Position numbers and translations under genes: made by a program | Part shown: positions 12,590-60,671 of the stretch, piece by piece | Numbering within the stretch: position 1 is the stretch's first letter | Layout of the letters: each line of letters begins with the position of its first letter | The notes under the pieces: generated by a model | Told to the model about the DNA's origin: nothing | What the model saw: the letters and a program-made list of their open reading frames with translations, nothing else | Databases searched by the model: none | Source of the DNA: Antedon mediterranea | Lineage: Eukaryota; Echinodermata; Crinoidea; Comatulida; Antedonidae | Reading direction: 5' to 3' | Assembly: GCF_964355755.1 (NCBI RefSeq) | Contig: NC_092674.1 | Location: 7,631,001-7,695,000, forward strand | DNA: 64,000 nucleotides

Positions 12590-12915
12590 TTCTGGTTTTA
12601 TTTATTTTGAAATGTCTTTTAAAATTGTTATTCCGTTTAAATTTCTTACAACAATGTTCACATTCATAAGGTGTCTCTCCTGTATGTAATCTCAAATGAT
12701 CTTTTAAATGGTTATTCCTTTTAAATTTCTTCCAACAATTTTCACATTCAAAGGTGTCTCTCCTGTATGTAATCTCAAATGCGTTTTGAAATTCCCACTT
12801 GTTTTAAATGTCTTTCCACAATGTTCACATTCATATGGTGTCTCTCCTGTGTGTATTCTCAATGTTCTTTTAAATGGCTATTCTAATTTCTTCCCACAAT
12901 TTTCACATTCATAAG
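12590..12915 (-). pseudogene. broken C2H2 zinc-finger array
   Basis: Minus-strand reading shows about four fingers with the pattern [11 protein letters not shown] and the linker HTGETPYEC, close to the classic TGEKPY linker. One linker has lost a base ('cattcaaagg' against 'cattcataagg'), and another finger has lost several bases near 12870-12880, so the frame is broken at least twice. No start, DNA-binding partner domain or splice context is seen. It is best read as a decayed fragment of a KRAB-less zinc-finger gene. Confidence 0.75.
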
Positions 12916-22775: not shown

Positions 22776-25468
22776 CTATAAATTTGCATAATCCTGACAG
22801 TAGTCCGTCAAATAGAATATTGCCGCTTCATAGCAAAAGTTGTATTGAGCCTAAAAGTAAAGTTGAAAGATCAATGTATTGACTTAGATCAATGTATTTA
22901 CTTGCATCAGATTGTACAATAATAATCATAAACATTTGTAAATAATCAAAGCAAGGAAATGTAGGTCACACAATTATAGAAACGGATTAAAAAAAATAAG
23001 TAATACAAATAACAAATATGGATGAAAATGATAGTAAAAACTACCACAAAACCAGACAGTAAATGATAAAAGATATTACCTTAGAGTCCACCATAGTAGG
23101 GCATGTTGAGCGCAGAATTTTAAGTACCTGGAATACATCCACCATTTTTTCTTTTCTCATTTTCTCGATCATTGAATGTACTAAACAGAATAATCCTGAT
23201 CTACGAATCCCATTTCTAAAAATTCAGAAACACAATGATAATGAATATTTACAATACATTACAGTATGGTACATACGAACATTATGATTTTCTAAATATA
23301 AAATTATGAAGGAGCATTTGTAGACGCCGTTCTGTGATCTTCTGAGATCAAATTGAGATTACAAATGCTTTGCAGCTAAGAATGCTCAATCAAAATCAAG
23401 ACCGTGTTCAACTGTTTTTATTTATGAATAACAATTTTTAGTCAGTAGTGCCATTTCTAATGGCAGAGAAATAAAAAGAAAACAAAACAAACTGTTTGTT
23501 GGAGTAGGAACAGGCCATACAACAAATTGTGACGTCCTCAAGCTTTGTATAATAATTTTTAAAATAGTTTAACATTTTTAATTATTAAAACCATTGAAAC
23601 AAATAATTATTACGTACAGGCAATGAACGATGATTGGATTTTCGTTGGAACCAACAATACTTGCGATTAACTTTACAAACGGATCCAACTTTGGTATCAT
23701 CTTGCTTTTTGGCCATTGGCGAAACTCGAAGTGATCAATCTCCCGTAAGTTGTTATCCTTAGATAGAATATAAATAAAAACATAAATGTGATTATCAGGG
23801 AAGAATTTCCTTTAATTATTTTTTCTCAGATGTTTGCGATATACTCCGACTTTTACCCATACTCTGACTTCTACCGATACTCTCTACACTATTCTAAATA
23901 AGTCACAATAATGATTATAAAATACTTTACTTTAATTTGCAAATGTTTCTCGGGGTGGAACTCGAATTCTACGACTTCCAGATCACTCGGCTGGCGTTCA
24001 AACCACCTAGCTATTTTTAAAGATTTTTTTAATTGGCCTAACACTTCCTAGTATTATGATAATTTATTTGAACTTAAAAAACCCATTTAAATTACTCAGT
24101 CAAAAATTCAAACAAATGAATTGGCAATTTTGTTACTACAGTAGTTATAACTAGTATAATCAATATAACTAACTTTAGCTACAATATAATATACAGCTTA
24201 CGGTCTCAATCATCCTACCCATAAACTAGGTAGTCATATATACATACCTTATTAATTGATATTTTTCTCTCGATCATGAAGTTGTTCTTAACCGCCGTTT
24301 TGACTGTGACAATAAATTGTCCGCATTTCAGCGGTTGTCTGATTTGTTTATGGAAATAAGTTGCACACGTCTGGTCCATGTCATTCAGCTGTACGATGAT
24401 TTGAGATTTATAGTCAAACACCAAACGCCAAAAATCCTCACTAGTGTCCACTGGATTACCCAGTGGAGCTTGCGTAACGATGTATGCGTTGCGGTTATAG
24501 TAAACCTAAAATAAAAGTAATACTTTAAATTATTATTATATTATCATACAGTGCATGAAAGACGGATATTTCTAGGTTCTATACTGCGATTCGGCTTAGT
24601 ATTTTGTAAAAAAAAACATTTTGCACAATTAGCACGCCATAAATATACTAGGTGGACCTCGTACAGAAATAATAGCAAGGTAAAAATTCCGAACATTTAT
24701 TTTTTCAAAATCCTGAGTCTGGAATGAATCGCATAACAAGACAAAATGAATCCCGTTTCAAGACAGAATGAATTCCGTAACAAGACAGAATTAATCCCGT
24801 AACAAGACAGAATAAATCACATAACAAGACAGAATGAATCCCATAACAAGACAGAATGAATCCCAAAACAATACAGAATGAATCCCGTAACAAGACAGAA
24901 TGCATCCCGTAATAAGATAGAATGAATCCCGTATGTGAATCCCGTATGTGAAGATTTCATAAAAAAATAAAACACACACACAAATTAATTACAACAGACC
25001 TTACTTGAATACAATTATGTTTGGTTGTATGTTTTCAAATCACAATGATATTTAAAAAAACAAATCGACTTACGTCACAGAATGATGCGTTGATGTAATC
25101 AGTACCACGGTCGGATGATGACATCAAAAATGGACGAGCTTTGTTTACTGCAAGACAAAACTAAAACATGTTAATCATGGATCTTCGTAAACAGAAATAG
25201 AAGCATATGTACACAAAGGATCGGATTCAGGACTGGATTTCCCTCACCTCAACAATAAAAGGCCGAGCAAAGCTTTAACACATATACGGTAGAAATAATG
25301 TAAGTAACTCAACGTTTCACGTGTTCAAGTATCTAAGGCTCATGGCAAACAAAAATTGTGGTACTTACGCGGCAATACTTCATTGAATCTATTCTTGAAA
25401 ATGTTCTCCGGTTTTCTTCCATGTGACGTAAGATCATCAGCGGGACGTGAAAACAAACTGTTCAAAGT
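22776..25468 (-). CDS. RPTP1 exons 24-29: degenerate second phosphatase domain D2
   Basis: Begins TLNSLFSRPADD, keeps DYINASFCD and VTQAPL, but the WPD loop is RQWPKSK (general-acid Asp replaced by Lys) and the P-loop is VHCLNGIRRSG. Cys and the CX5R Arg remain while the SAGxG part is changed. Weak or no catalysis is expected, as for many D2 domains, which mainly regulate D1 or dimerise. The final exon codes 24 residues and the stop. Confidence 0.86.
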
Positions 25469-28400
25469 CTAAAGTAGAAAGATAAGAAAACGTGTTGTGA
25501 ATTTAAACATGAAATGTTCTATTCTGTTGTATGACGTCACAAGAATGATGTATTTATGTGAAGAAATGTGACGATTAATTGCACATGAGTACAAACCAAC
25601 TAGTGTTGTAATAGCTATGCCACACAGCGCAATAATGAAATTGATTCGAAATCAATTTACCTTGAGTTGATAATCAATGGTCAAAGGATTCCTTTGCATC
25701 TGCCTCAGTGTTTCAACGTCGGTTATAGGAATTACAGTTTCTCCACAAAACAACTCTTCAAGTATAACAGCATAGATGAACTTATATTGTTCCTAAAAAT
25801 GTCAGTTAAAAATCTATATTATATGAGAGGGTTCAGTTGTACGATTGTTCGTTTTGGTAATATGTAATGCATGGGTTATCATAATGACCAGAATTGTAGT
25901 AGTATTTAAGTAAGGCATTAAACTACATGGAGCGGTTATCTTTGCTAGTATAATGCTAATACTACAATGGATCCGTTCTTGGCGTGAATAACAAGGAAAC
26001 AACGTGGATTTTGTTCTCCGAATAATACTTTTTTTAAATTCTCATTTTAGGCAAATTACCAAGGAATTCATTCACTATCCTTCTATCAAAGGTGGCAATC
26101 CCGTTCACAAGACAAACACATACACAAGATGCTCCTAATTACAAGTCTTTGGGAGTGGAGTTGCAAATTGTCATGAGAACAAATCCTGACATATGACAGG
26201 ATTTGAACCCAGGACCCTTGGATTGGTAGCCAAACATCATAACGATCAAGCCACAACTTTCTACTATTTCATGCGCTTTCATTATGATTTGGTTCTTTAT
26301 TCTTGTTTTTATATGTCCGAGTTTTTACTCTTTATGTACAGATGATCATTCATCGCATCGGAACAGAAATCGTAACAATGGAAGGAACATAAAAAAAACC
26401 AATATTAATGATGTACAACCTCTGTTTGAACCATTTGAGTACGATTCTGTCTCATTTTTCTCACGAAATTAAATACATCCACTTTTCCTTCTTCTCTCGA
26501 CATGTCGAACATGGCAGCAATAGCAATCACAGTTCCTGTTCTACCGGCTCCAGCGCTAAAAGATAATACATATTGCTGCCAGTTACAGATAGTAAAGATA
26601 AGGCATAGCTGTTAGGCCTAAATTCCATTAATGTGTTAATACAGTAAGCTTGTATTTGTAATACAGTAATTTAGACTTGTGATCAACCATAAAAATTATA
26701 TTATGATAAACTGTGAGTATTGGATTACCTGCAATGTACAATAACTGGTACACTGTTAGAAAATTCCTGCTGAGTTTTGCTAAATGTTTGTATAAAATGG
26801 ACCAACTGCGGGACTTCGTTTGAAATACTTTTGTCAGGCCATTCAGTGAATTGAAATTGATATACCTTATAGATATTCTCGTCATGCCCTACCTATACAG
26901 AATGATAGTAAAGCAATGTTTTGAAATACCAAAAATTTTACATACGCCTAACATTTTTAATTAAATAAACGTAATAAACGTTAATAAAACGTACTTTATA
27001 TGTTTCGTAGTTTTCTTTTTTTGGGCTGCCCATGCTTTATTATTATTATTTTTTTTACATTTGTAGAGTTTAACTTTGTTGCCCTCTTCAAAAATAAAAA
27101 CATCAGTAATTTGATATTCATATGTTTTTGTACAATTGCATTCAATATTGCATATAAACATTAGAAGCTCAGGCTACGCAATTGTTATAACGCAAGTAAT
27201 TTGACCAGACCAAATTGAACTGACAGGATTGGTCAACTTTGTTGTGTTTTATATATGGAAACGAAGCTTAAGCAAAGCAAATGTATTGCTCATTTGAAAC
27301 CATTTGCAAAAAAACAAAAAAAAAAACAAAAAACCAGTAGCATATACTTAAAACGTATTGATGTATACCTTCTGAAGTTGAAAGATACGGGCCACATAGT
27401 AACCGTGGTTCACTTCATTGTCGTTCGTTACAGAAATGTCTCCGTAGACTTTTCTACCGTTTACATCTGGCCAATACTGTTCACATTTTTTCTGTAAAAA
27501 ACATAAGATAATTCAATACGCCTTTTTTTTTGTAAAAACACATGTATCTCTAACAACATTTACGAACTGTGTCTGAAGTCGAAAAAAAAAAAAAAAATGA
27601 AGCTGTGATAATTTTTCTGTTATTCTTTCATTTACGCAAAAATGTTTTGTCACATATCCGAACTATGCGAATACAATCAGAATGAAAATATCTTCACATT
27701 GTTTTGCAGTGTTTATTTATTGCAGCAAAACAATATATAAAAAAAATAAAACTATTTCCTTATTTATCACAGCAATATATTCATCGTTACCGGTATTCGC
27801 TATCAAAGATTTTATCTTAAACAACGTTTAATACCTTGCTTCCTTCAACAAGATTAGTCACTACAACAATAACTCTAGACTTCTCCTTCCACACCATTCT
27901 CCACATATCGTTTACTGACGCCATATTTGGCCCTGCAAATAATCAAAAATAATATTTAATATATGGTGACTTTATTACACTACATTGCATATCTACCTCA
28001 CCTTAAAATATACAATACATATAGATCTGTGTTGAGCAATAACATCAAAGCTACAAACATATATATGTAGATGCATATGTCTATATAAAACAAGAGGAAT
28101 ATTTAAGTTAGAAAAAATAACATTGAAGTCAAAGAAGCTTATATTAAACATTTGATTCATTGGCATCATAATACCAATAATACTGTACTACATAATATGT
28201 CTTGGAACTGTTGCTAGACTAGGAAGCTAGTATCTATTGTATTGATTGTACATACAGAATATATATAATAGGGCCTATTTGTAAGAATCAATAAATAAAA
28301 GGAAAATAGTGAGCAAATTCAAATGTATTTAGAGAAAATAATACAACCATGCTAAAAGCCAATTAAGAGCGGTAACTTCCGTATGACCATTTGCACTCAA

Positions 28401-31400
28401 CGCGGGGTGTAATAATGTTGTAATATTGTGAATTTTGACCAACATATTCATTGTTCTCACCTTGGCAAGCGATAAACTCGTGTGGTGTTCTATAGCCCTA
28501 AAATTTAAATGAAATGTACCGGTTAATGACCGCTTCAATTTTTATTGTTACAAAAAACAATTAGCCTAACCAACTGTTGAAACCGTGTAATAATTTTTAA
28601 ATTCATTACATTTTTATTATAACTTACATCTAGGTACGAAGCATTTATGTAGTCGGATCCAGGAACGTTTTCAATCTGGTCCAATACCACGCGAGTGTTG
28701 TCATCTAAAAATGAAAGAAACAGTATACGTATAAATAGACTATGCTTACGTAACAGCATACGTACCGTATAAATAGACTATATTAAGTAACAGTATATAT
28801 GTATATATGTATAAATAAACTACTATATTTTATACAGCTTTTAACAGTCTATATTAGGTCAACAGTATGCGTATACGTATATTATTATATTTAATTAAAT
28901 ATATACGTATACATAGACAGTTATTAGGCCTATATTTTATACAGTTTTTAACAGTTTATATTAGGCCTATAACAGTATATAAAAGTATAAATCAATTATT
29001 ATATTTAAATAAATATACTGTACCAATAAATAGACAGTTATATGTTATACAGTGTTTTCAACAGTCTCTACGTACGTAGAAGTATAAGCGTAAAAATAAT
29101 TAATTTATTTATAATTACAAATAAACATTAATTAAACTTACATGGAATGACGTTTGCATATCGATTCTTCTTTCTATTTATTGACGATTTAGCGATTGTG
29201 CTCGGGAATGCAGGCAAGTTACCAAGATTCTGAATTGAAATATTGAATATATTTGTTATGATATTATTTAGAAAAGGCTATAAGAATAAGAAAAAAAAAA
29301 TACTTCTTTGCTATTTCGTTGATAAGCTACTGTAAAGTCATCAAAAAGTGGACCGAAAAATGATTCAATCTCAAGCCCTAATTAACTACGCGTCTTACTC
29401 ACCCTCACGGGTACGGTATGAAATAGTACTAGTTGTAAAATGTGCGCATGCGCAAATATTATATTCAGATTAGATTAGTTGGCTTACTAGGCCTTATTTG
29501 TAACATATACTGTTAATGTTAAAAACAGTATATGTTACAAAAATGTAATAGAATCTTCAGCGTACCTCAAACTCTTTCTCAAAGCCATTTTCAACATTCG
29601 TTTGCCGCATCATCACATAGTCATGTAGCTTTGATAACTCAACGGGCTTGTATTCTAGGTTACTGTCTAATTGTGTGTTACCATACACTGGTTCAGAATC
29701 AGGTTCTTGATAGGCAGATTCAGACTCAAAGTCTGGCTCCACGTTTGCAACACATCTACTGTCATCTTCGTCGATACATTAAAAACATAAAATAAAATAG
29801 CATTGTTATTAAAGATTGATCTTCAAAGATTGCAAAATGTCAGCTTTAACTCAGTATTTAAAAACAGGTTAAAGTGAAATTAAGTTGTCTTGGCTTACAG
29901 AAGAATTGTGTTTTTCTTGTGTGCGGAAAAATATATATACAGCTAGGACAAGATCAATACAGTGGTTATATGCTTTATTGTCACTCATTTTTACTTAAAT
30001 GTAACAACATTTTGATGTTACCTCCTGATTGTGTTACTTGTGAAGTGTGAGGTATACCAGAAGATTTCTTACTTCTGCGTCTGAAAGATTTCGAAAAGTT
30101 CAAAATAATAATGTGTAATAATATTATTATTACACATTGGAATAGCTACGATTATTATAATATTTACAATTCTATAAAAGCTTATACAAATTACCGTTTA
30201 ATTAGGACTGCTAGAATCAAGAGAATAACAACAAATGCGAAGATGCAGCCAATTATTACACCTATCGGTATACAGAAATTTAAATGTTAATAACAAAATA
30301 AAAGGTTAATGTTCGTGCTCAGATGACCCTATGTTTTGATACAGAAATCGGAACGTTTCACTTCTCTGTAGTCGATTTGTATTTCTTTAAACGATAGATT
30401 TTTAAAACAATGAACTTCTAAAGGTAGAGTGAATTAACTGTTGCTGTTTTAATATGAATTTATAGATATACTTTAGAAAACACTATCAAACCTTCTTTAT
30501 CATAGTTTTTTGTTTTCTCATTCTTGTTGCTATCTTGACGATCACAATCTATCTCAAACACAAGTTTCTTTGTGTCAGATGTCGTATTAACGTTTAAATA
30601 CGACGCTAATACTGTGAATGTATATTCTATACATGGCTCAATTCCGTCACCAAATATAACTTCAGTTTCTCTTGTAGTTCCTTGACGAAATATACCACCT
30701 GACAGTTTATAATGGTAGGTCACCTGACTGTCTGGTGTGTCGCATGAAGGGTTCCATTTCACCATTAAATGTGTTCCATTTGCAAAATAATTACTTTCTA
30801 TCGATGGCTCTATATACGAATAGAAATAGAATTTGTAGAGCAGGTGTTGTTTTTACTTACACTACAAATAGCAAAAATATTTAAAAATGATTCAACACAA
30901 AAATATTTGTTTAATTGTCAATGCTCTTTGAATCCCTGTTAAATTTATGTTATAAAAAGATAACAAGCAGAAAGTAGTTTTCTTTTGTTTTGACTCGCCC
31001 TCATTAAACAAAGTTTTTTTTAATGACATAAATAAATAGGTCTAAAAGAAATTAATATAATGGGTTGAATATATCATGTTTGCATAGTATTCAACAATTT
31101 AAATGTATTTTTGCATACAAAGTCTAACTCACTTGAGGGTGCTGTTTGTATTCTCTTTGTGTCAGATGTCGTATTAACGTTTAAATACGACGCTAATACT
31201 GTGAATGTATATTCTATACAGGGCTCAATTCCGTCACCAAATATAACTTCAGTTTCTGTTGTAGTTCCTTGACGAAATATACCACCTGACAGTTTATAAT
31301 GGTAGGTCACCTGATAGTCTGGAATGTCACATGTAGAAGCGTTCCATTTCAACAGTAAATGTGTTCCATTTGCAAAATGATTACTTTCTATCGATGGCTC

Positions 31401-34400
31401 TATATACGAATAGAAATAGAATTTGTAGAGCAGGTGTTGATTTTACTTACACTATCAAAATAGCAAAAATATTTAAAAATGATTCAACACAAAATATTTG
31501 TTTAGTTGTCAATCCTCTTTTAATCCATGTTAAATTTATGTTTTAAAAAGATAACAAGCAGAAAGTAGTTTTCTTTTGTTTTGATCCACCCTCATTAAAC
31601 TAAGTCTTTTTTTAATGAAGTAAATAAATAGATTTAAAAAAAAATATATATAATAGGTTGAATATATCATGTTTGAATAATATTCAACAAACTAAGTAAC
31701 ACAATATTAATCGTGTGTTTTTGCATACAAAGTCTAACTTACCTGATGGTGCTGTTTGTACCGATATCTTCTCTCCCCAATTACCAGCAATCTCCTTGTT
31801 ATTAACAACTCGAGCGTTTACTACATAAGCAGTACAACTTGATAAACCTGAAAGTTCAACTTCTAATTGAGAACTGTTTGTTGTTACATTTCGTATATTC
31901 CTATCGATGTCCGAGTATTGCACTTGGTATCGAAGAATAGAGTTACATTGGATTCTATCAGGAGTACTTGAATCTAGCTGAAACAATAACATACAACATA
32001 TTAAGAATGAGTAATAAGTAATAGTAAACAAAAATTAACAAAATATAGGCCTAAAGTATACTACAAAATATTTGTTTGTCTCTGTGTGAGAATTGCTTAA
32101 CTTACTCTCAGTAACATTACGTATAATATAACAAGTTTTATATATTTGTTCAAAGCCTACTGTATAATGTTTAACTAAACTTATCTTACAAAACAATTAA
32201 ATAAAATAATACCTTTAAATCTAAAATGACCATATTTTCTTTAATAGTTTTTAATGTTATTTCTGGTTCTACCAAAGGTTCTGTAGTAAAATAATACGTT
32301 TTGCAATAAGAAAGAACAAAAAGTAATATAACCTATTTTTCCCCTAATTTGTGAGTATTTTTAATCTACTGGCATATTTCAAAACTAAAAAAGACTGAAT
32401 ATAATTAATGAATGTGGTATTATCATAATAAATATATTAATATGTGTATTATATTAAAACAAAATCAGGAAAGTGAACATTAATTGGAATGAGCATAGTG
32501 ATTATAGCAAGCGATTATGACAAATAATATTAGTGCTTACTTGAACAGACCAGTTGTGTCGAACTTGTGTTACTTTTTGGCCCACCTTCAAGTTTACCGT
32601 TTACCATTCTAAATAATTGCGATTGAAACTGAACTTTCGTATTTGGTATTAGATTATAAACTGTCACTAAATTTGAATTAGGACTAGAAGAAGAATTCCA
32701 TTGGTTATCTTCATATGAATAATACCAGATCTTCCGTTTTATAATTGTTCCTGTTCCATAGTCTTCACCAGGAATCCAAGTGACGTCAAACGTTACGGTA
32801 GTTGCTGTCTGCTCTACAATAGTTGGCGGTTCAGTACGGTATGGTAATGCTAAAACAAAAGATAATTATTATCCTCATCATCATAATTGTTATCATTATT
32901 ATTATTATTTAATACTTATTTGTTAAATAAAATGCAGAATATTTTCTTTTTGTAGTTGTAATAACAAAACTTACTCGACTTTCCCTAGTAGGCCTATTAG
33001 AAATTATCTTAAATATTGATTATAATGTAGGTACTTTTATAATACTTTAAAAATAATACTGATAACGTTATCAGTGTAATGTATGCTTAATGTATAACGT
33101 AGCATAACGCATAACGTAGCAAAGAGATTTATACCATAACTATGTGTTACCTATGCTGCATTTAGGTCCAGCCCAGGCCCTATGACATTTAGAGCAACTT
33201 CCATCTTGATTACAATCTTCAGAGCCTTTGCAGTGACATGGGAAGTTACACAAATCACCAAATAATCCAGACGGACATTCAGTACGTGCTATACAGTATG
33301 ACAAAGCAGAGTATTAAAGAATACAGATATTAATTGTATGTGAACATAATGAGTTACTTGGTTGCAAAATAACAGTAATGGGGTGCAAAAAAGAACGTTT
33401 AAATTAATAACTTTATATTATTGTTGTATTTTTAAATACAACAACATATTATCATCATTATATATATTGCATACTTTTAATAAGCCTATTGTAATTGTTG
33501 GTCATAATGTAAAATATAGGACTAACTAGCCTACCTAGACATTTTTCTCCAGTGTAACTATCATTACATGCTGACTCGGAAGAACAACCTGTATACCGAT
33601 CACAATGTCTATGCTCACAGTTACATTTTTGGTGGCAATCAGCTCCATAGAAACCAGCACTGCAACCTAAAAAATAATAAGACTTTAACACTTACGATAC
33701 CTGAACCTAATAAAGAACATACATTGTATAACTAACCTTATGCATTATTTGAAATTAAAATACAAACTAAAATACATATAACTGTCCCATTTATTATTTT
33801 ACAAGAAAACTATAATAGAACTAGATTTCAACAAATAAACAAAAATGTGGTATACTAATATTATGTTTACGTGCAATAGTATACTGTTTTTAATTTCCTT
33901 TTTCGATTTTTTTCTTTCTTATTTTTATACTCGTTTAGATTTGAATAATAAAAATATTTATATTAAAACTAACTTGTTTTACAATCATTTCCTCCAAACC
34001 CATTTTGGCATGCACAACCAACTGGATCAGGTGGACATAAAAGAGATCCTTTGCAATTTCCATTAGAAGCACACACAACGTTGCAGTCACGACCCCAGTC
34101 GTTATTTCCGCAACCTGTTGCAAATAACAAAACAAACCATTGTATTAAAAATCATTTTATGCTATGGTTTGTAAGAATACATAACAATTGTAACTTTGCC
34201 CTATTGTTTTAAATATTTTTAGACGCACCATCATAATGTTAAAGTGCGCCACTGCTATAAAAGTACAGTACCAACAATTATTATATTAGGCCTACTATTT
34301 TGGCAAGAAATCCTGCTGGACAAATGCAGGAAACTGCGATAAACATGCACAATATACATTTTTAAGCAATTGATATAATTTCTCAATTTTTTTTTCTTAA

Positions 34401-40400: not shown

Positions 40401-43400
40401 CCCAAGAAAGTATTTTGTATTCCGCTCGCCTTCCTCTATCCATTTTACTCTGGACCTAATTTGCGCGCCTTTTGCTTCTACATTATAAATGTTTTCAAGC
40501 TCTATTTTTTTGTTTTCAATTTTATTTTCAATGGTTATATCACAATTTTGAGTATTCATAATTGTTTCATTTAAGTTTTTTATTTGTTTTTGTAATTTTT
40601 CTTTCTTTTTATTCTGGTTTTTATTTTTTTGTTTTCCGTATGCAATTGAAAATTCTTTTATTTTTGTTTTTACAAGCTCCCATAACAAACTTGCACTTAC
40701 AGGTTCTCTATTATTTTTTAGTATTGAAACATCAATTATTTTAATTACTAATTTTGTAAATGTTTCATCTTTCAGAAAGCTATTGTTGAACATCCATAAA
40801 CCAGGACCGCGTATTTTTTCATGCAAATCTATTTTAATTGATACCGCCTGGTGATCTGTGAGAATGGCTGGACGAATGTCACAGGCTAAAACATCTCCAT
40901 TTGAAAAGAGATCTTCTGATATTAACCAGTAATCCAGCCTACGGAAAATGTTGTTAAATCTCTTACGCCACGTAAATTGTCGCTTATTCATGTTTTTGGA
41001 TCTCCAAATATCATTTAAATTTAAATTTTTCATTAGGTTTTTAATCATAAAAACAGATTTATCAGACCTATTTGCGCTACCTTTTTGGTCAATGTCACTA
41101 TTCATGATACAATTCAGATCTCCACCTAGAATGATAGAATTACCCTTCCCTCCATCAAAGTCATTGTAACATTTGTGTATGGTCCTAAAGAATGCACTTC
41201 TATTTTTGCTTTCATTAGGAGCATAAATATTTATAATGTCCAATTCCTTTTCATTTATCATTAAATTAAGAAATATATATCTTCCATCAATATCAGTTAA
41301 CTTTTTAACAATTTTGCATTCAAGACCTTTTCGTAATAGTATCGACACTCCTCTACTATGTGAATTACCTATACTATGGATCACTTCACCTTCCCAAACA
41401 AAGTTTGATTTATTAATAATCTCATTTGTTAGATGGGTTTCCTGAAGCAGACATATATCCGCTTTTTGATCTTTTACCCATTGGAATAGCTTATGTTGCT
41501 TATTTATATTTCTAGCTCCTCTAACGTTTAGTGTTATACAATGTAAATTCATAAGATTAGAGTAAAGAGCTTCCTAGGGAAATTACAATATTTAGAATAC
41601 ATATTATTAAGATTAAATTACTTGTTTTTGTTTCTCTTTCTTAAACTTCTTTTTTCAATACTCTTTGTTTTTTCTTCTGTCCTGCCTTCATTTCCGGACT
41701 GTTCCTTCAGATCTCTCGCTGCTTTCTTGTTTGTGCTAACACTTTTACTTTTTTGCATACTTTTTTCAAAGTAGTCAGTTACCTTCTTCTGTTCATGCTC
41801 CTCTCTTTCCCCAACTTCCTGCTCCTCTCTTTCTTCAGCTTTCTGGTACTTTCTTCCCGGTACTTCTTGTTCCTCTCCTTCTTCAACTTCCTCCTCCTCT
41901 CTTTCGTCCACTTCCTGCTCTTCTCTCTGCTCCTCTCTGTCATCATCTTCCTGCTCATTTTGGTTTGTGTGTTGTTCTATAGTGATCACACTTGTTTCTT
42001 TCTGCGCATTTTCATCATCTGATGATTCACTACTTCCATCAATACTAAACACTTCATCATGTGTTTCTGTATCAGATTGTACCGTAGCTCTTTTCCCGTA
42101 GTGGTTATCGTTAGCATTACTATTTTTTGGGTTTTCAAAGTTAAAAACCGATTCCCAAACTTTATTAATGTATGCACCAGGTGAACCAGATGATGATACA
42201 TTATGCGCTTCAACATTACATCTGTCCCTAGTATGCCCTGGTAAATGACACTTGAAACAGATTATATCAGCTTTGCATTGAAAAGCTAAATGCCCAGTCT
42301 TTGTACATTTGTTGCATTTCACTTCCTGACCGTCATGAAAAGCCCGTGCTCTAAAACCATTTATTATTATCTGTCTTGGTATAGGCGATTTTAGCTTTTC
42401 TACAACGACAGCTCTGTCACCGTTTAGCCAGCTGGTTAATTGGCCATTAACCCTTATTTTTAGCCTTGTAACATCTCCTATTGGTTTGCATCCTAGCGCT
42501 TTCAACTTGCTAGCAATCTCTACGTCAGCAACCGATAATGGTATATCCTTTATGACTATTCTCGTTGTTGTATGCCAAATAAGGATTTTTATCATGAATT
42601 GTAATATTACAATTCCTAATGTTTAGTCCATTCGTAATTAGTTTCACTCTATCATTTCTATTATTTAGATAAATTCGCCATAGGTTCCGTATTTTTTGAA
42701 CACCTATTATACTTTCTGCAGCAATTATTTTTAGTAGGGCTATACATAGGTCTTCATCTTTGAAAAAGCTTTTTCCTGTTGGTATTTGATCAGCCTTCAA
42801 AAAGATTGGCTTCACTACACTACGTTCTTTGTTTACTGTTTGCCCGTTCATCCTGCTGATTTCGTCACCGTCAGCCTGTGCAGCACTGTACATTCCTTTG
42901 TTAGTCCCGTTTCTATGGGTTTTTGACGCCATTGTTTGGCTTTCACCGGGCTTAGACGTGAACGATATACAAATTGTTTTTTCCTAGTATTTCTTTCAGG
43001 TAAAAACTTCCACCTTAACAAAGACTTGGTTTAACTTGACTTATTCACTATATTATACTCACTTAGAAATCAATCGAGATTTAGAAAACGTCAAATTTTA
43101 ACCGTATTTCAGGAGCTGTAATAAACTATACCTTGGTTAAGTAAAATCACAACGCCCTCAAGGGAAGGGAGCAGTTAAAATAATAGATTTGACCCTAAAG
43201 GTGACTGAAAACAGGCACTTTCCCAATACAGTGTCCTTTTGGAAGACGAAAAAAAAAATCAGATATATCCATTTCAGTTTTTTGTTTATTTTAAAACATA
43301 CCGCGCGCATGTGTGAAGGTACAGTAGTTAAATAATAGGAATTATACTGCAAATTAATAAAGATCAAATTAAATATACGCCATAAAGAATCAGAATATAT

Positions 43401-46400
43401 TGTGGGGAATAGTATTATAAAATTACATAGGGAGATTTGATGATAAGACATTTTTCGAGTGAAATCCCGATAGCTGAGTTTTATTGAGTAAGCTTGCAGG
43501 AATAACTGTAGGCTATCTTCCTGAGATGTCTGCCCATGTCTTCTTTCTTGGGCCCACTCTGTCACGGCAGTTAGTTTCAAAAGATGATTAAATTAAATAA
43601 TGTATTAATAATTATTAGGATGGTATTCATTTGAATAAACGCCTCTCCAATAAAACATCACTTTGAATAATAACCCCCCCCCCCCACCCCAACCCAACTA
43701 TCTAATAAACGTCCATCCACATATTTATAATAACACAATTATACTATTTGTAGTAGAATTCACCGCACTGTTTATCAAGCATTTGTTATTCTTTTTTACC
43801 ACTTTTCATATCTATTAGAGGATTTCATTTGATTATAAATGTTACCATTATTAAAACTAAAAAATTTAACATATATCCCTCGAATAAGCACCTCCCTCAA
43901 ATGACATCCGCCTCCACAAAGGGCCCTACCAAACAATAAAAACTATACTTTCAAATGTTATTAATCATCTAAAACACTGTGAAACGAAGTAGTTTAGTTT
44001 TACGAATGTCAAGCATTTTCAATAATGGTAACCGACAGAAAACGTATAAGGAGAACATTATCATTCCGAGAACCATCGTCTACACTTCCTAGAGGGGGAG
44101 CGAGCGAAGCGAGCTCACCCTCTAGTAAGAGTAAATTTTAATAGTTAAAAATAATGGTATTAGGTTCCATTACGATCTATCTGTACTTACTCACCAGAAG
44201 CGGATGTCAGTACAATTGCTGAGTTGGTGATTACTTCGCCGTTCTTTGCTTCAAATGAAAATACTCCAACTCTCTTAGGTTGTAAGTCAGCAACACCTAA
44301 AAACGTGTGTTCGGTGTGCTCTCGAAATTGAATCTTACTATTTGTGTTAAAGATTTTACCATTTGGCATAGGTTTCGTTTGTAGTTGTGTAATGTATCCA
44401 GGCACACGAGGCGTAATACCAGTATCATCCCAAGTCACATTATCTTCCCCATCACTATTCTTGTATAATATTCCAACTGATAAATCTGTAATGTTTTTGT
44501 CGTCTCGAAGTGCGTATCCTCGAAACAGACTATTAATAGTATCAAGATTACTACGTGATGTCAGTGGTGTATCAGAATATACAGTTATATCCAATGTATC
44601 TTAACGAAGAGATATAAAAACAATGTTTGAATTAATACAAATATAGGCCTAGTAATCTTATGGATAAATATGGCAAACCCTACAGAAAATGTGAATGTTT
44701 GCATTGAAGATTTGAATACTTTTTTAACATATTGTAGGCCTAATAATATATAAGTGGTTTGGAATAATATATCATATTTAATTGCACTTTTATTAGGTTT
44801 AATTGTAACTTAATTAGTACTAGTACTAGTACAAATTAGGGGAAAAGAACACATCTCTGTAGAAAATAAAGTGGATTTGTAACACTATAAAATATAAACG
44901 ATGGCATTAACTTGATTTTATTTTTCCTTCCTATTTTGTGGTATACCATGTTAATCCAACTTCATCCAAATCATCATTTTTAAATATATGCGCATGCGAT
45001 TATGGATATTCTTATGCCATCCAATCAGACTATTTTTTACCTTTAATTACAAATAATTTTGGATTAAGGTTAAACGAAAATGAACGGTATTATCATTATA
45101 TTGATGGTACTCAATTTTTTGCGTATTTTACGTATCTCCTCCAAAACCATTTGGCAGACTGATGTTTATTGATGGTCCGCAAACGATAGGCTACGTCACT
45201 TTCCTGAACTTTAAGGATAAACACCAAAAAGGCAAAAATAGCAGTAATTTGACGTCTCAGCGACCATGTTATTGTATAAACTACGCAATCTCCTTTTTTT
45301 TGTGTACCGCCATGGCCGGATGCGATTTTTTTTCGTACATAAGTTGGGGACCCCCTCATGAAACGTCACAAAATAAACATGAATAATTCATCAGTTAAAT
45401 TTTCTTGTTCCGTGTGCACTCAAGCGTATAGCAACAAGAAGTGATTACACAAGTGCGGTACGATTCTAGGCCTATCTCCGCTGTTGTTGCGGCGTGCGAT
45501 TTCATAGAAGAATAGCCGCGTTTTGTGTGGATTGTCGAAATGATCAGCCTTTAGTTTATGGTGTTTTTAATATAATTTATTACTAAAGAATTACGTGTTA
45601 AAATTATAGTTTCTATTAATACTATTAGGCCTAATTATTAGTCTCTAAACCCATGTCTATTCTAGTAGTAGCTGTGTGTGTGTGTGTGACGTGTGTGTGT
45701 TAGGTATGACCAAAGATAGTTACACTATCTTTGGTATGACACAATCCGAGTAATAAGTCAGCAAAATTAAACAATAAACATTACACAAAAATACATTTTT
45801 TATTCTCGTGGGTCTAATCTTCCCATCTCATGTGTTCATATACGCGCATTTTTAAAGTTCCTTTGAGTACATGCATATTGTTTGATAATAAAATAGCAGA
45901 ATTAAACAAATACAGTACGCAAATTATACACATTCTTTATTCTTGTGGGTCTAAGCTTTCTTTGGGCTATGTCCAATGAATTACTACTTAGTTTAATGTC
46001 TTGCCTAGCTGTCGATTAGCCTCGACTCGACACATTTTGTGTGAAGAAAAGTGCGCGAAGGCAATCACGTGAATTGACTTAGAATCCTAGGCCTACTGTA
46101 GAAAGTATCGTATCGCAGTTGTGTAATCACTTCTTGTTGCTATACGCTTGGGTGCACACGGAACAATAAATTTAACTGATGAATTATTCATGTTTATTTT
46201 GTGACGTTTCATGAGGGGTCCCCAACTTATGTACGAAAAAAAAAAATCGCTGGCCGGATCTACAAATACCATGCCGGGCCGCCAAAAAACAGTCTTTAGT
46301 CAACCGTATCGAATGATCGCGTCGTTGAAGGTTTAATTAATTACACCTATTCTTTGAACAGAATGTTTTTCGTAAATCACGGTTTGGCTCAGTGAGTAAA

Positions 46401-49400
46401 ACGCCGTGGCCATTGATATCAATCATGCTTAGTATGTTCGAGTTCGCGACAGGTGTACAATTATTAAGTATCACCGCTTAAACCTAAAAATCAAAACTAG
46501 ACCGCAATGTAATTACAAAACTAGCAACAAAGATAAAAAACCTCACACAAAAAAAATTACAAAATATAAAAAACAATGAAATAAAAAAAATGTAAATAAA
46601 CAAATAAAGAAAAAGACACACACGCAATACTAAAACGAATCCAAATGGCTGTCGTGTTTCCGCTAACGAAAAATACACCCAAAGTGTTTGTGTCCGAGCG
46701 CATCATCTAATTTCGACTACTCTTGTTGCTGTGTTGATTTCAGAGTTCATTAAAATGTTTAATCTGCCGACTCATTGACATTTTGTAACTTACAGATATT
46801 TCAAAGTAAAGGAATACTCCGTGTATAACAAAAGTAATGGCCGTAAATAGTTCCGAACTGTATTCTTGACAATTTGTTTGCTTGTTTTTGTCAGGGGTGC
46901 GGCCGGGAAGAGTACGCAAATAATTAATCATGCCATGCGAATTATTTACCTCCGCCAAGGAGGTATATGTAATCGGTAGCGTGTGTTTGTTTGTTACTTG
47001 GCCAAATTGAAAATTGGCCAAGTATGTTGATCTGTTTGGTTTGTGTGTGTGTTTGTTACTTGGCCAAATTGAAAATTGGCCAAGTATGTTGATCTGTTTG
47101 GTTTGTGTGTTTGTTTGCTTGTTACTTGGCCAAATTGAAAATTGGCCAAGTATGTTGATCTGTTTGGTTTGTGTGTTTGTTACTTGGCCAAATTGAAAAT
47201 TGGCCAAGTATGTTGATTGGTGCGGTTTGTGTGTGTGTGTGTGTGTGTGTGTGTTTGTTTGTTTGTCATCACTCTAGCGTTCACAATTTTGATTCGAATG
47301 ACTCCAAATTACTACCATACATGTCACCTGGTGCAAGAACGACACTGCCCAATTTTGGTTAAAATCCGGACCACGGTTCCAATTCTGGACCACTTTTAGA
47401 AATTATTTTCAGACCTGCTAGTGTTAAAAGATAGGACAGAATTATCAAAAGCCGGTGAGCAGTCTTAAATTAACATGTAAACTAAAATTGCATTTTCTCG
47501 AGAACTACTTCTCCAAAAAACTTCATTTTTGTACAAGAGGCAAGAGTTATAATTTGTGATTTGTAATTTTAAAACATAAATTGATTTAATATACAGGTTT
47601 TTTGATGCGAGTAGTTTACAAAACCTATTTCTTTTCAAATTCACTCGTTTGATTTTCGCGTTGCTGTTCTATTGTTAGTCGACTGAAGCTATTGTTAATT
47701 GAAAGGCTTGTTACATAACCATTACACCAAACTCGCATACACATGCTTGTAATGAAATTAGCCTAAATCACAAACAGCATTAAGACACGCACAAATATAT
47801 ATATATATTTTTTTTTTACCGGAGAAATCTTATGTAGGAGAATTTTACAGTAGGCGGAGGTATGCCCTCTCGGAGTGGCTTTCTAGTTATTAAGGCAGAT
47901 AAACCGTGTGGAGCACGGGTTATTGGTATACCACAATTTAATTAGTAGCAAGTTTAAAAATTAGCAAGTAGGTAACATACAAATAAAAATTAAAATTGCA
48001 AAATATCAAAACCAGTGAAATAAAAATAAAACAATTCGTGTTTCCGAAGCAATGTGTTTTTCATTCGACTTTTGTCAAATTTTTTATTTTATCTCTGAGC
48101 TGATTACCACTTTCGTAATGTTTCCGCGCACATCTAATTCGCACAGCACAATTTTTGTTTAGCGTTTTTATTTTCGTAAAATCTGAACAGTCAAAGTAAA
48201 TCTAAAGTTCCATATCCACAATTGCTTTAATTTTTTAGCCTACATATATTTTAAAGTGAAGGGATAGTGTATAACAAAATCCATGGCCGTAAATACAGAA
48301 ATTCCGAATTTGATTCGTGATACAATTTGTTTTTATTTTAATAATTTGTCAAAGTACTTTTATCAGATTGCGCTTTTATTATACTTGCCCATGCAAAGTA
48401 TATAACCACATATTAAGGCAAAAATAAAAGACTGTGCGGAGCACGGGTTACTGATAGTTATTAATAATTGTTTAAAAAAATATATCTTCGGATATAAACA
48501 TGTTTCAGTGGGATAGTAAATTTCTAAATAGGAGTCAACATTTGAAATTATCATATATTGTAAAATCGGGAGAAATTAAAACAAAATATTGTTTTACAGT
48601 TGTTGAATAGAACTATTTCATAATAAAGAAATGGAATCGTACATTTCAGGTTACCGATACAACAACTCAAAAAGTTGAATGCTATACCATGCGGAATAAT
48701 AATATATCTAGTTTCAGATAGATATCTGTGATAGTCATCGTTATAAGTACGGTACACTTGTGAGAAGTTATTGCTAATGAATAATACACCACCCTCCTAC
48801 GTTACAAGGTATTGGCATAGAATGTCTAGAATACTAAAAACACATATAAAAAAAGGATTAAAAAAGATTTAGATTTATCTCTGCAACACGATCCGACACC
48901 GCGCATCGCGGGGAATATGTAAATAGCACAGTACAACTGTTGGTATTTGTCGCCGCCAGACACTCAATTGACTATTATTTTAATTTTATTTTATGTCTTT
49001 AGGCAATGTGGCCGGCCAAGGATTACCAATAGTGAATTAATCACTGTCCTATCAGATAGGTGGTAATCCCCCTAATACAGGGGCAATTGTGTGAACCAGT
49101 TCACCGGGGTAACCCCCTACGAATACCTATCTTGGCGAGTCTTAGGTTTCTGTTGTTAGATTGCTTTAATGCAACTATACAGGATTCTTTTAAATAAGGG
49201 GCATGCATTTGAAATGTTACACATTAACAATATTATACCATTACGGTATATCAATGGACATTTGACGTCTTCTGACAAAAATAAACACGGGTGTCCGTTA
49301 AATAAGTAAGGGATGAACAAGGGATGAGATAAACAAGGGATGAGATAAACAAGGAATGAGATTGCAACATACCTGATGATCCAAATTGCCAACATAAACA

Positions 49401-49436
49401 AAGACTACAAAGCTGAAAACATTTAGAGAAAAACAT
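22776..49436 (-). CDS. receptor-type tyrosine phosphatase with Tie-like ectodomain (RPTP1), 29 coding exons
   Basis: Exons (5' to 3', minus): 49436-49373, 44599-44195, 35306-35058, 34554-34420, 34114-33974, 33666-33535, 33288-33151, 32849-32541, 32280-32213, 31977-31743, 31399-31133, 30809-30492, 30261-30195, 30080-30022, 29765-29566, 29229-29142, 28704-28628, 28497-28461, 27932-27835, 27491-27369, 26892-26729, 26555-26420, 25792-25661, 25468-25369, 25147-25074, 24505-24248, 23757-23618, 23215-23080, 22850-22776. All have GT/AG borders and matching phases; the total is 4425 nt, 1474 aa. Order: signal peptide, Ig, Ig, four EGF, four FN3, one TM, phosphatase D1 and D2. It should be a plasma-membrane receptor that removes phosphate from tyrosines. 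The ectodomain resembles Tie (angiopoietin) receptors, not known RPTP ectodomains. Coordinates may be off by a base or two. The gene has absorbed a LINE, a Helitron-like element and tRNA-like SINEs in its introns. Confidence 0.88.
23951..24012 (-). ncRNA. tRNA-like SINE head in RPTP1 intron
   Basis: The minus strand shows an A-box-like 'tagctaggtgg' and a B-box-like 'attcgagttcc' at tRNA spacing. Folding looks poor, so a SINE promoter or tRNA relic rather than a working tRNA is likely. Confidence 0.4.
24715..24945. repeat. 21-bp minisatellite in RPTP1 intron
   Basis: About ten units of 'aacaagacagaatgaatcccg' with point changes. Confidence 0.9.
25661..29229 (-). CDS. RPTP1 exons 16-23: catalytic phosphatase domain D1
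   Basis: All key motifs are present in order: KKNRYANVIPYDNTRV, SDYINASYLD, FIACQGP (usual IATQGP), the WPD loop FTEWPDKS with its general-acid Asp, the P-loop VHCSAGAGRTG with nucleophilic Cys and Arg, and the Q-loop region MVQTEEQYKFIY. A functional tyrosine phosphatase is expected. The loop usually reads GVGRTG or GIGRTG; here GAGRTG. Confidence 0.9.
26196..26256 (-). ncRNA. tRNA-derived SINE head in RPTP1 intron
   Basis: Minus strand: A-box-like 'tggcttgatcg' and a good B box 'GGTTCAAATCC'. The body probably runs down to about 26080. The interval sits in the intron between exons 22 and 23. Confidence 0.5.
28735..29090. repeat. AT-rich intronic repeat
   Basis: Loose repeats of 'ttatacagtttttaacagt' and 'taaatagac' between D1 exons 16 and 17. 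Confidence 0.6.
29500..29538. repeat. perfect 15-bp inverted repeat
   Basis: GTAACATATACTGTT and its complement around a short loop, 28 bases past the exon 15 donor. Confidence 0.85.
29566..30261 (-). CDS. RPTP1 exons 13-15: membrane span and juxtamembrane stalk
   Basis: Exon 13 is the single transmembrane helix (VIIGCIFAFVVILLILAVLI) followed by KR; exon 14 begins with the stop-transfer cluster RRSKK. Exon 15 is acidic and ends ENGFEKEFE, the lead into D1. It contains SEPVYGNTQ: pY-x-N is the binding consensus of the Grb2 SH2 domain, and RPTP-alpha has a comparable pYANF at its C terminus. Phosphorylation here is inference. Confidence 0.83.
30492..31399 (-). CDS. RPTP1 exons 11-12: FN3 domains 3 and 4, recently duplicated
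   Basis: Two exons 590 bases apart encode nearly the same FN3 domain (both start EPSIESNHFANGTH and share YHYKLSGGIFRQGT). Flanking intron sequence is duplicated too. The second copy diverges after SDTKK, replacing RIQTAPSS with a short Asn/Lys-rich membrane-proximal stalk. Confidence 0.87.
31743..32849 (-). CDS. RPTP1 exons 8-10: FN3 domains 1 and 2
   Basis: Exon 8 (309 nt) holds one FN3 domain from PPTIVEQT to STQLVCS, with the conserved core W (DVTWIPGED) and Tyr (VYNLIPNT). The second FN3 domain is split by a phase 0 intron: 32280-32213 and 31977-31743. The second half reads LRYQVQYSD, then LSGLSSCTAYVVNARV and ends VQTAPSG. Confidence 0.85.
33151..34554 (-). CDS. RPTP1 exons 4-7: four EGF-like modules
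   Basis: Four phase 1-1 exons of 135, 141, 132 and 138 nt, one module each. The first reads CYNGGVCDDKTGVCICPAGF. The second contains LCPPDPVGCACQNGFGG, whose PDPxGCxC pattern is a hallmark I know from the second Tie EGF module. The third opens CSAGFYGADCHQKC, again Tie-like. The fourth is CPSGLFGDLC then WAGPKC. Tie proteins have three such modules, so one extra is present here. Confidence 0.85.
35058..35306 (-). CDS. RPTP1 exon 3: second Ig-like domain
   Basis: 83 codons. GIGESVTINLS marks the B strand and RMKDDGVYECYTGD the F strand (DxGxYxC), ending MRLIVRG. The B-strand Cys is absent, so no canonical disulphide can form; as I recall, the corresponding Tie2 domain also lacks it and also ends LIVR just before the EGF block. 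Confidence 0.82.
35994..37750 (+). mobile_element. Helitron-like non-autonomous element, copy 2, inside the LINE
   Basis: Begins TCTATATATAAATTTACG after an A and ends CCATCTAG before a T. The last 37 bases (37714-37750) form a near-perfect hairpin with loop GAGCGAAGCGAGC. It splits the 3' UTR of LINE copy 1 and is therefore younger than it. It contains a 475-bp tandem duplication. Confidence 0.65.
36479..37428. repeat. 475-bp tandem duplication inside the Helitron-like element
   Basis: Two adjacent, almost identical units; 'gagcccttggtttaac' occurs at 36505 and 36980. Identity appears near complete, so the duplication is very recent. Confidence 0.9.
37792..41552 (-). pseudogene. LINE copy 1 ORF2 (endonuclease-reverse transcriptase), one frameshift
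   Basis: Starts MNLHCITLNVRGARN. The apurinic-type endonuclease motifs are complete: LLQETHL, NIYAPN, GGDLNC, RRLDYWLIS and LTDHQAVSI. The reading frame shifts once near 40200, in an A run before the RT domain. The RT part then shows KTPGSDGLSVEFY, NWRPITLLN, VDFKKAFDS, GIRQGCPLSALLF and ADDTVLY. A C-terminal zinc motif CDKCGEIENENHLFFSC follows. The domain order fits the L1 superfamily, probably the Tx1 clade. The active site reads LADD instead of the usual YADD or FADD, also in copy 2. Confidence 0.88.
41618..42932 (-). pseudogene. LINE copy 1 ORF1 (zinc-knuckle RNA-binding protein), one frameshift
   Basis: Starts MASKTHRNGTN at 42932. The frame shifts near 42565-42575, where DKNPYLAY in one frame continues as TTRIVIKDIPLS in the next. 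Two CCHC-like knuckles follow (CNKCTKTGHLAFQC and CFKCHLPGHTRDRC), then a long Glu/Arg-rich repeat (EEQEV units) and a basic tail. ORF1 proteins of LINEs coat the RNA. The charged tail is unusually long and repetitive. Confidence 0.82.
43175..44088. other. intronic repeat relics
   Basis: No exon. Contains a poly-C tract (about 43675-43687) and fragments of a dispersed repeat with 'ttgaataaacgcctc' and 'tcgaataagcacctccctca', also seen near 52640-52690. Confidence 0.5.
44089..44125 (+). mobile_element. 3' terminal hairpin of another Helitron-like element
   Basis: CTAGAGGG ... CCCTCTAG with the same GAGCGAAGCGAGC loop as 37714-37750, followed by T. Just upstream 'ccgagaaccatc' also matches the end of copy 2. 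The 5' end was not located. Confidence 0.5.
44195..44599 (-). CDS. RPTP1 exon 2: N-terminal Ig-like domain
   Basis: 135 codons beginning DTLDITVYSD, with no cysteine. The late stretch ADLQPKRVGVFSFEA has the shape of an Ig F strand with Phe in the Cys position. It lies where Tie receptors have their first Ig-like domains. The acceptor is cgttaag, the donor CTG/GTGAGT, both phase 1. Confidence 0.75.
45316..46259. mobile_element. ~940-bp foldback/MITE-like element with ~160-bp inverted ends
   Basis: The left end (ggccggatgcgattttt onward to about 45480) is repeated in inverse at about 46100-46259. Shared landmarks are 'aagttggggacc', 'catgaaacgtcacaaaataa' and 'tcttgttgctatacgctt'. Inside are a GT run, a hairpin at 45710-45734 (CCAAAGATAG and complement) and an internal repeat with 'cgtgggtctaa'. 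No transposase. Confidence 0.75.
46381..46450 (+). ncRNA. tRNA-like SINE head
   Basis: A-box-like 'tggctcagtgag' and B-box-like 'tgttcgagttc' at the correct distance. It looks like the head of a tRNA-derived SINE; the acceptor stem does not pair well. Confidence 0.45.
46948..47886 (+). mobile_element. non-autonomous element with ACCTCCGCC ends
   Basis: Opens 'ttacctccgccaaggaggta'. Its end carries 'ggcggaggtatg', a short hairpin 'gccctctcggagtggc' and then TTCTAG before T. A 3' hairpin followed by CTAG is Helitron-like, but the 5' end is not a clear TC. It contains a minisatellite and a GT microsatellite (about 47226-47254). Confidence 0.5.
46996..47216. repeat. 57-68-bp minisatellite with palindromic ACTTGGCCAA core
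   Basis: Four units, each holding 'acttggccaaatt' and its complement 'aattggccaagt' around GAA, separated by 'tatgttgatctgtttggttt'. The long open frames here are readings of the repeat. Confidence 0.9.
48968..49130 (-). mobile_element. SINE 3' fragment
   Basis: Inverse copy of the 3' half of the SINE at 57868-58165, sharing 'ggttaccccggtgaactggt', 'ctgataggacagtgatta' and an ATAAAATAAAA-type tail. It is located between the RPTP1 signal exon and the next exon. Confidence 0.7.
49373..49436 (-). CDS. RPTP1 exon 1: start codon and signal peptide
   Basis: Reads MFFSKCFQLCSLCLC then WQFGSS and stops at a TCAG/GTATGT donor in phase 1, exactly matching the phase of the next exon (44599-44195), where the joined codon makes Asp. 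The Cys/Leu-rich core is a plausible signal peptide. It is chosen as the first exon because no other hydrophobic Met-led exon in the right phase was found between 44.6 and 55 kb. The 4.8-kb intron that follows holds mobile elements. Confidence 0.7.
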
Positions 49437-59800: not shown

Positions 59801-60625
59801 AACTGGATTAGTTCAGGGTTTTTAAAAATATATGATGTAATAAATAATAATGTGTTTAAGCCTGCGATAGAGATAAAAAGAAGGTTAAGATGTACACAAA
59901 ATTGGATCAGTGAATATTCATGTATATTGAAAGCCATTCCAAAAGAATGGAAATGTATTTTAAAATCAACACATGACATTAATGTAAATGATATACCTAT
60001 TACAAACAATAAGGTCTTAAATATGACGTCTAGACAATTATATAGATTCATAATAGATGCTCAATATATTACACCTACGGCACAGGTTAAGTGGGAATCC
60101 ATATTTGGTAATATGCCATGGACAAAAATATGGGTTAAGAAAGTTTCTGGTCTTAAAGAAAAAAAACTGGCACATTTTAATTTTAAATTGTTGCACAGAA
60201 TATTGCCAACAAATGAAAGATTACATAGGTGGAGACTTGTAAATTCCCCATGTTGTGACACATGCAATGTTATTGAGAATGATAAACATATGTTAGTAGA
60301 GTGCATAACAGTAAAATGTTTATGGAGAGAGATAAACGAAATAATTAGAGCAGTAAGCATACATATTCCTGTTTTTTCTTTCAAAAGACTTTTTTTGAAA
60401 CTGACAATAATTACGTAAATAAATTATACACTTTAGGAGCATTTTGTATTTATAAAGTAAAGATATTAAGTTTATTGGAAAAAGAAAAAAAAATCAATCT
60501 CCTACAAATGTTTAAATCTGAAAAAAAGATAAGAAATATGTAAATCTGCAGGTATACTGTATATGCTCAACCAGATTAAGGAAGAAAATATGTAAATGAG
60601 ATACCATGAATGATGAATCTATTAT

Positions 60626-60671
<46 letters not shown>

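Follow-up and report, generated by a model that had tools for sequence, protein, structure and literature searches.

The locus examined here raises the question of whether a receptor-type protein tyrosine phosphatase (RPTP) can carry the ectodomain of a receptor kinase, as suggested by a sequence-only reading that recognised motifs of the angiopoietin receptor Tie ahead of tandem phosphatase domains, and, if so, what the role of such a receptor might be. The window, i.e., the whole 64-kb stretch of DNA that was analysed, corresponds to C5:7631001-7695000 of a 354-Mb assembly (~11 large contigs, 32% GC). Assembly of exons by hand, with GT-AG borders, yields a gene on the minus strand (hereafter gene A) that starts with an ATG at 49436 and terminates with a stop codon ending at 22776, exactly the span proposed originally. 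The reading frame consists of 29 exons encoding 1474 amino acids, with 0 internal stops and with splicing predicted from conserved exon borders, and the order of modules is signal peptide-Ig1-Ig2-EGF1-4-FN3 (four copies)-TM-juxtamembrane-PTP D1-D2. The features of the window are as follows, with the basis of each assignment given last.

49373..49436, minus strand: exon 1, start codon and putative signal peptide (MFFSKCFQLCSLCLCWQFGSS); exon assembly
44195..44599, minus strand: exon 2, Ig1-like domain; assembly, 56-69% amino acid identity to paralogs
37792..42983, minus strand: LINE-type retrotransposon in the Ig1-Ig2 intron, not a part of the receptor; RVT_1 E=2.6e-34, Exo_endo_phos E=1e-12
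35058..35306, minus strand: exon 3, Ig2, without the B-strand Cys and ending LIVR, both features shared with Ig2 of Tie2; C-terminal part aligned to Tie2
34420..34554, minus strand: exon 4, EGF1; assembly and Tie2 alignment
33974..34114, minus strand: exon 5, EGF2 bearing the PDPxGCxC insertion typical of Tie; assembly, Tie2 alignment, signature comparison
33535..33666, minus strand: exon 6, EGF3 (CxxGFYGxDC); assembly and Tie2 alignment
33151..33288, minus strand: exon 7, EGF4, an extra module at the position of Ig3 in Tie; assembly
32541..32849, minus strand: exon 8, FN3-1; assembly and Pfam
31743..32280, minus strand: exons 9-10, FN3-2 (32280-32213 and 31977-31743, phase-0 intron); assembly and Pfam
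31133..31399, minus strand: exon 11, FN3-3; assembly
30492..30809, minus strand: exon 12, FN3-4; assembly
30195..30261, minus strand: exon 13, transmembrane helix (GVIIGCIFAFVVILLILAVLIKR); assembly
29566..30080, minus strand: exons 14-15, juxtamembrane region with the YQEP and YGNT tyrosine motifs; assembly
25661..29229, minus strand: exons 16-23, PTP D1; assembly, Pfam, alignment
22776..25468, minus strand: exons 24-29, PTP D2, up to the stop codon; assembly, alignment
55388..63832, minus strand: 3' part of paralog B, the tandem neighbour of gene A, the ectodomain of which continues beyond the window

Each of the modules EGF1-4 is encoded by a single exon, and phase-1 introns bound every module of the ectodomain; FN3-2 shows a 1:0:1 phase pattern, with a phase-0 intron in its interior. 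In R3 RPTPs, FN3 exons are usually of phase 1, and interruption by a phase-0 intron is likewise known from FN3 exons of these receptors (PMC5336234). FN3-4 arose from FN3-3 by a recent tandem duplication (90% amino acid identity), and the hydrophobic transmembrane helix of about 20 residues is followed by KRRRSKK. The juxtamembrane motif EPVYGNT/GPVYNNT is retained in two paralogs, and the stretch 49500-49367, which includes the start codon, matches the 5' end of the adjacent paralog with 79% DNA identity. Much of the length of gene A is due to the LINE in the Ig1-Ig2 intron, which encodes an endonuclease and a reverse transcriptase. Next to this element, between 36.4 and 37.6 kb of the window, there is a direct duplication of ~475 bases with nearly 100% identity. 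An Rfam scan of the window gave no match.

A Pfam search with the assembled protein identifies Y_phosphatase in two stretches (E=1e-131) and fn3 above the cut-off in four stretches, along with weak matches to Ig and EGF models (E 0.002-0.03). For Ig1, no Pfam Ig model matched. The structure predicted for this domain is all-beta, with low confidence (pLDDT 57); in a VIA-align comparison the best matches of the model are V-type Ig domains with Z of about 5 (5.8 for the top one), nearly all matches being V-type. A Foldseek search with the same model (pLDDT 57) gave nothing at E<=0.001, and Ig1 of Tie2 is absent among the structural matches listed. Thus, the order of modules anticipated by the sequence-only reading holds in the 29-exon model, with the qualification that the assignment of the first module as an Ig domain, which rests on the predicted fold, is plausible but unproven.

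The relationship to Tie, proposed originally from sequence motifs, can now be assessed by alignment. A search of all PDB sequences with the Ig2-EGF4 segment identifies human Tie2 with E=1.4e-32 (116 bits), and the alignment begins in the last part of Ig2 and continues across EGF1, EGF2 and EGF3, in this order. Contactin-1 (3e-6) is matched by the Ig part only, and the best EGF-only match, a chain described as "EGF-like domain-containing protein" (6u11), scores 1e-4, or 25 bits; the matches to SREC (E=0.002-0.004, about 20 bits) and Notch (0.005) are weaker still. All three motifs initially recognised are present, namely an Ig2 with the B-strand region ESVTINLSK, devoid of Cys, and the terminal LIVR; PPDPVGCAC in EGF2; and CSAGFYGADC at the start of EGF3.

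The CxxGxxGxxC frame is common to the EGF repeats of Tie, MEGF and gene A proteins, as is apparent also from the tandem EGFs of MEGF10/11, SREC and PEAR1, so that the head could in principle be an ordinary MEGF/SREC-type EGF array that resembles Tie by convergence. As a control, a 1540-residue MEGF-like open frame with 35 EGFs from the same genome was compared with the Tie-like EGF blocks, which align with it at 33-40% identity. The EGF2 signature of Tie is present in 14 of 16 Tie-like blocks and in none of the 35 EGFs of the MEGF-like frame; MEGF10/11, SREC and PEAR1 have no Ig2, no PDPxGCxC EGF2 and no phosphatase; and the block aligned to Tie2 extends into Ig2, with the modules in matching order. 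In the maximum-likelihood tree of EGF blocks, nine MEGF windows are set apart, at 100/100, from a group formed by human Tie2, the Tie kinase of this genome and every Tie-like block; the branches are long, and the order within the Tie-like group is not fixed. The probability of convergence from a MEGF/SREC array is therefore negligible, such an origin of the EGFs of gene A being ruled out at the sequence level by the Tie2 scores, the signature and the tree. By alignment and tree, the head of the ectodomain of gene A is Tie-like.

This likeness extends only through EGF3. Gene A shares with the Tie kinases (TEK/TIE2 and TIE1) an Ig2 ending LIVR, EGF1-3 in order with Tie-type EGF2 and EGF3, and FN3 repeats ahead of a single TM helix; unlike gene A, however, Tie kinases have a kinase where gene A has phosphatase domains and an Ig3 between EGF3 and FN3 where gene A has EGF4, whereas gene A has four FN3s and the genome contains 75 or more copies of the ectodomain. 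Thus, with no kinase and no Ig3, gene A is an RPTP with a Tie-type head, not a Tie receptor. The part of Ig2 that we take, from the Tie2-Ang2 structure, to contact angiopoietin in Tie2 is not conserved in gene A. Therefore similar ligands, which had been envisaged for the phosphatase and the kinase, should not be assumed, and angiopoietin-type binding by this head appears doubtful.

The phosphatase half matches RPTPs (E=1e-130), and a single TM helix separates the adhesion-type ectodomain from the tandem PTP domains. Alignment to PTPRS and PTPRA shows that D1 retains KNRY, WPD, HCSAGAGRTG and QTEEQY; among single-domain chains, the best match of D1 is PTPRK, followed by PTPRT and mu. D2 finds its best match in the D2 of PTPRS and LAR, scoring lower with their D1, and has WPK in place of WPD, with the Cys and Arg kept in HCLNGIRRSG. 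In a PTP tree that includes human phosphatases and others from the same genome, the D1s of the Tie-RPTPs form one group (87/94) and their D2s another (98/95); the Tie-RPTPs grouped in this way include a divergent copy located on a different chromosome. The phosphatase block is that of a two-domain RPTP with an intact D1 and a D2 lacking the WPD Asp, in agreement with the initial assignment. The layout FN3-TM-D1-D2, with an active D1 (predicted, in the case of gene A) and an impaired D2, is shared with the two-domain RPTPs (LAR/PTPRS, PTPRA/E and PTPRK/M/T), which differ in that none is known to have a Tie-type head, and some relatives of gene A keep D2 alone. The four EGF exons between Ig2 and FN3 set gene A apart from the R2A layout, in which Ig is followed directly by FN3, and the LAR-type phosphatase of this genome is a separate locus (C6:28.77 Mb). 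To our knowledge, no known type of RPTP has a Tie-type Ig-Ig-EGF head, and no description of a Tie-RPTP was found in the literature searched, outside which lies the 2006 sea urchin phosphatase survey.

The loss of the WPD Asp in D2, the loss of D1 in neighbouring copies and the intronic LINEs of gene A and of the adjacent copy might indicate a decaying copy in which the phosphatase is no longer important. The 29 exons are open, however, the catalytic residues of D1 are all kept, and a comparison of gene A with three paralogs by the simple Nei-Gojobori method gives a D1 dN/dS of 0.11-0.18 despite high dS. Decay of gene A is thus highly unlikely, the dN/dS values being consistent with a functional D1.

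Another possibility is that a neighbouring Tie-like receptor gene and an RPTP gene have been joined in error, all the more so as many Tie-ectodomain genes of this genome have no PTP exons. A search of the genome with the EGF block identifies 75 Tie-like EGF1 exons, a number that is a lower bound, and 26 of these are followed by same-strand PTP exons at about 6-18 kb; PTP exons on the opposite strand are found downstream of none of the 75. Paralog F (C5:7777500-7796499), a tandem copy, repeats the whole series of modules that begins with Ig1 and ends with D2, with 45-91% identity per exon. In gene A, the splice phases are compatible from FN3 through the TM and juxtamembrane exons into D1; if the two were separate, the phosphatase part would be left without an ectodomain and the Tie part without a TM. 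Because order and strand are repeated in this way, a wrongly joined gene pair is rejected as exceedingly improbable, and because the same module order recurs in tandem copies, a chance origin of the architecture is excluded. Genomic order thus runs counter to the possibility, allowed for at the outset, that the ectodomain and phosphatase exons belong to different genes, and in no fewer than 26 copies the two are predicted to form a single gene.

What had been presented by implication as a single curiosity belongs to a family of Tie-ectodomain genes that numbers at least 75. The same genome encodes a true Tie kinase on C6, with a Tie-type Ig2, EGF1-3, Ig3, FN3s and a kinase domain that is 57-62% identical per exon to human TEK. 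The class with both D1 and D2 includes gene A, paralogs F and G and one C6 copy, and the Asp, Cys and Arg of D1 are kept in all four. The class with D2 only includes paralog B and a C1 copy; in both, D2-type exons come after the juxtamembrane exon, and no match to D1 lies between. For some Tie-ectodomain genes, no PTP exon was found within the stretch read; about 10 kb was read for some loci (L014-L017 and L019), the counts of PTP exons are themselves lower bounds, and the absence of PTP is provisional for some of these genes. The clearest case is L012 (C6:26197500-26207400), where the ectodomain of the next gene starts about 7 kb after EGF1.

Several additional observations pertain to individual members of the family. 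The juxtamembrane exon of paralog B (63179-63832, minus strand) contains repeated motifs of the EPIYAEPE/EPVYIEPE type, candidate SH2-docking YxxP sites, and an intron of this gene harbours a second LINE (56998-60418, plus strand). L012 belongs to an array at C6:26.05-26.28 Mb of tandem Tie-ectodomain genes ~10 kb apart, with no PTP exons in the stretch read; it has an Ig-like exon after EGF4 (weak Ig_2 match) and a very Tie2-like EGF2. At L026 (C5:8060000-8069499), a complete Tie-RPTP is preceded by a partial copy that spans Ig1 to FN3-1; the next Ig1 follows after about 4 kb, and no PTP match lies in between. A PTP exon and EGF exons of the Tie-like kind are present on C17, a small contig that is unplaced; given this contig, the assembly may leave some family members unplaced.

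The modules of these genes differ in their divergence. Comparison of gene A with paralogs B, F and G (L031, L024-L027) gives an unexpectedly low dS of 0.16-0.71 in the ectodomain (29500-50000 of the window) vs 1.05-1.46 in the phosphatase domains, and dN/dS of the ectodomain modules (three paralogs, simple Nei-Gojobori) is 0.32-0.65. D1 is strongly constrained and the outside less so, given the lower dN/dS of D1; in every module compared dN/dS is below 1, a ratio that does not demonstrate diversifying selection. At the DNA level, gene A and paralog B can be aligned in the 5' region, across the exons of the ectodomain and over some of the intron sequence between these; in the PTP half, two D2 exons align and nothing else. 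In the simplest reading, the ectodomain halves would have been exchanged between tandem copies, through gene conversion or unequal crossing-over.

These genomic comparisons are best explained by a scenario in which a Tie-type head (Ig-Ig-EGF1-3 plus the extra EGF) would have been joined via FN3 repeats to the TM-D1-D2 part of an RPTP, in a single fusion by exon shuffling at phase-1 FN3 introns that would have preceded the expansion of the family. The grouping of the Tie-RPTP D1s and D2s in the PTP tree fits, and thereby suggests, one fusion event; the EGF-block tree is silent on a PTP-bearing clade. The best reading is that the fusion is ancient and was followed by expansion into a large receptor family. 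That gene A has the architecture described, represents a Tie-RPTP fusion and works as an active RPTP is, in our estimate, quite probable. In such a receptor, the head would bind an extracellular or cell-surface ligand, and binding or clustering would control the access of D1 to phosphotyrosines; D1 would dephosphorylate tyrosines of nearby proteins, D2 would regulate or dock, and the juxtamembrane tyrosines (YQEP and YGNT) might recruit SH2 adaptors. The copies that have only a D2 lacking the catalytic acid, or no PTP, could be non-catalytic partners or decoys that compete with or modulate the active receptors.

Tie kinases have been studied as receptors of vertebrate blood vessels, and their opponent in vertebrates, VE-PTP (PTPRB), a phosphatase with Tie2 as its target, has an unrelated ectodomain. 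Like gene A, VE-PTP is a receptor phosphatase with FN3 repeats, its tie to Tie being functional; it differs in having FN3 repeats only, one PTP domain and no Tie head. The established VE-PTP/Tie2 antagonism offers an analogy, in which a Tie-RPTP would mainly antagonise the true Tie kinase by sharing its ligand or pairing with it through the ectodomain and dephosphorylating it. The presence of both proteins in one genome, with a common head, speaks for such a role, as does the huge expansion of Fibrinogen_C, the ligand fold of angiopoietins and also of FREPs/ficolins. However, a single Tie kinase vs at least 26 PTP-bearing copies would be odd for a dedicated brake, the presumed ligand-contact region of Tie2 is not conserved in Ig2, and Fibrinogen_C expansion is common in invertebrate immunity. 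We therefore regard a dedicated antagonist of Tie as unlikely, though as the main alternative to the role favoured below.

In this genome, Fibrinogen_C domains form tandem arrays with more than 150 scored exon matches genome-wide (C1:9.0-11.25 Mb, C1:40.3 Mb, C10:12.3-12.9 Mb and others), which are not linked to the Tie-RPTP arrays. In a coelomocyte cluster of a sea cucumber, a gene annotated as TIE1 is among the top genes (PMC11925454), and starfish coelomocytes contain a Tie-2-like and a PTPRF-like protein (PMC13409769); these labels, which are automatic, may refer to true Tie kinases.

The role that we favour for the Tie-RPTPs is that of a repertoire of recognition receptors which would be displayed by coelomocyte-type cells and whose output, through the phosphatase, would be inhibitory. 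It is favoured because of the tandem expansion, the exchange of modules and the variable outside over a conserved D1, and because of the Fibrinogen_C expansion and the Tie-labelled genes and proteins of coelomocytes; we would put its chances only slightly short of even. Like the sea urchin Sp185/333 and the FREPs, the family consists of tandem lineage-specific arrays with variable outer parts; it differs from these in being a membrane receptor with a built-in phosphatase, and its immune role is putative. In a broader and more tentative version, somewhat less probable than the repertoire as such, a large and diversified ambulacrarian recognition system would have been assembled from a Tie head set on a kinase (one gene), on an active phosphatase, on an impaired phosphatase or on no enzyme, possibly expanded jointly with fibrinogen-domain ligands, and would amount to a paired activating/inhibitory repertoire unrelated to the paired receptors of vertebrates.

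A Tie head set directly on a phosphatase and then multiplied, in a genome that still keeps a Tie kinase, opens the question of whether one extracellular code is read out with opposite signs, as well as that of the role of Tie receptors before blood vessels and of Tie-type cell recognition in echinoderms. Automatic labels such as "Tie-1-like" or "RPTP-like" in echinoderm data may conceal members of the Tie-RPTP family.

Elsewhere in the window, an open frame at 950-1612 (minus strand) resembles, by eye, the YWTD propeller of LDL receptors (an LRP-like gene) and is a neighbour of the array, and a C2H2 zinc-finger fragment is located at 12570-12877 (minus strand; zf-H2C2_2, E=2e-11). The vertebrate setting implied by the sequence-only reading is not borne out by the Hox genes, which point to an ambulacrarian, i.e., an echinoderm or a hemichordate; the number of large contigs, the assembly size and the GC content raise the suspicion of a crinoid. 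A bryozoan origin is rejected by the same Hox genes and by the GC content of 39-40% in a published bryozoan, and a search of the assembly for mitochondrial COX1 gave no match. A single Hox cluster of twelve genes, with identities assigned by eye, occupies C2:7.83-8.21 Mb and includes posterior genes of the Hox9/10 type and three of the Hox11/13 type, one of them inverted, which is the ambulacrarian pattern.
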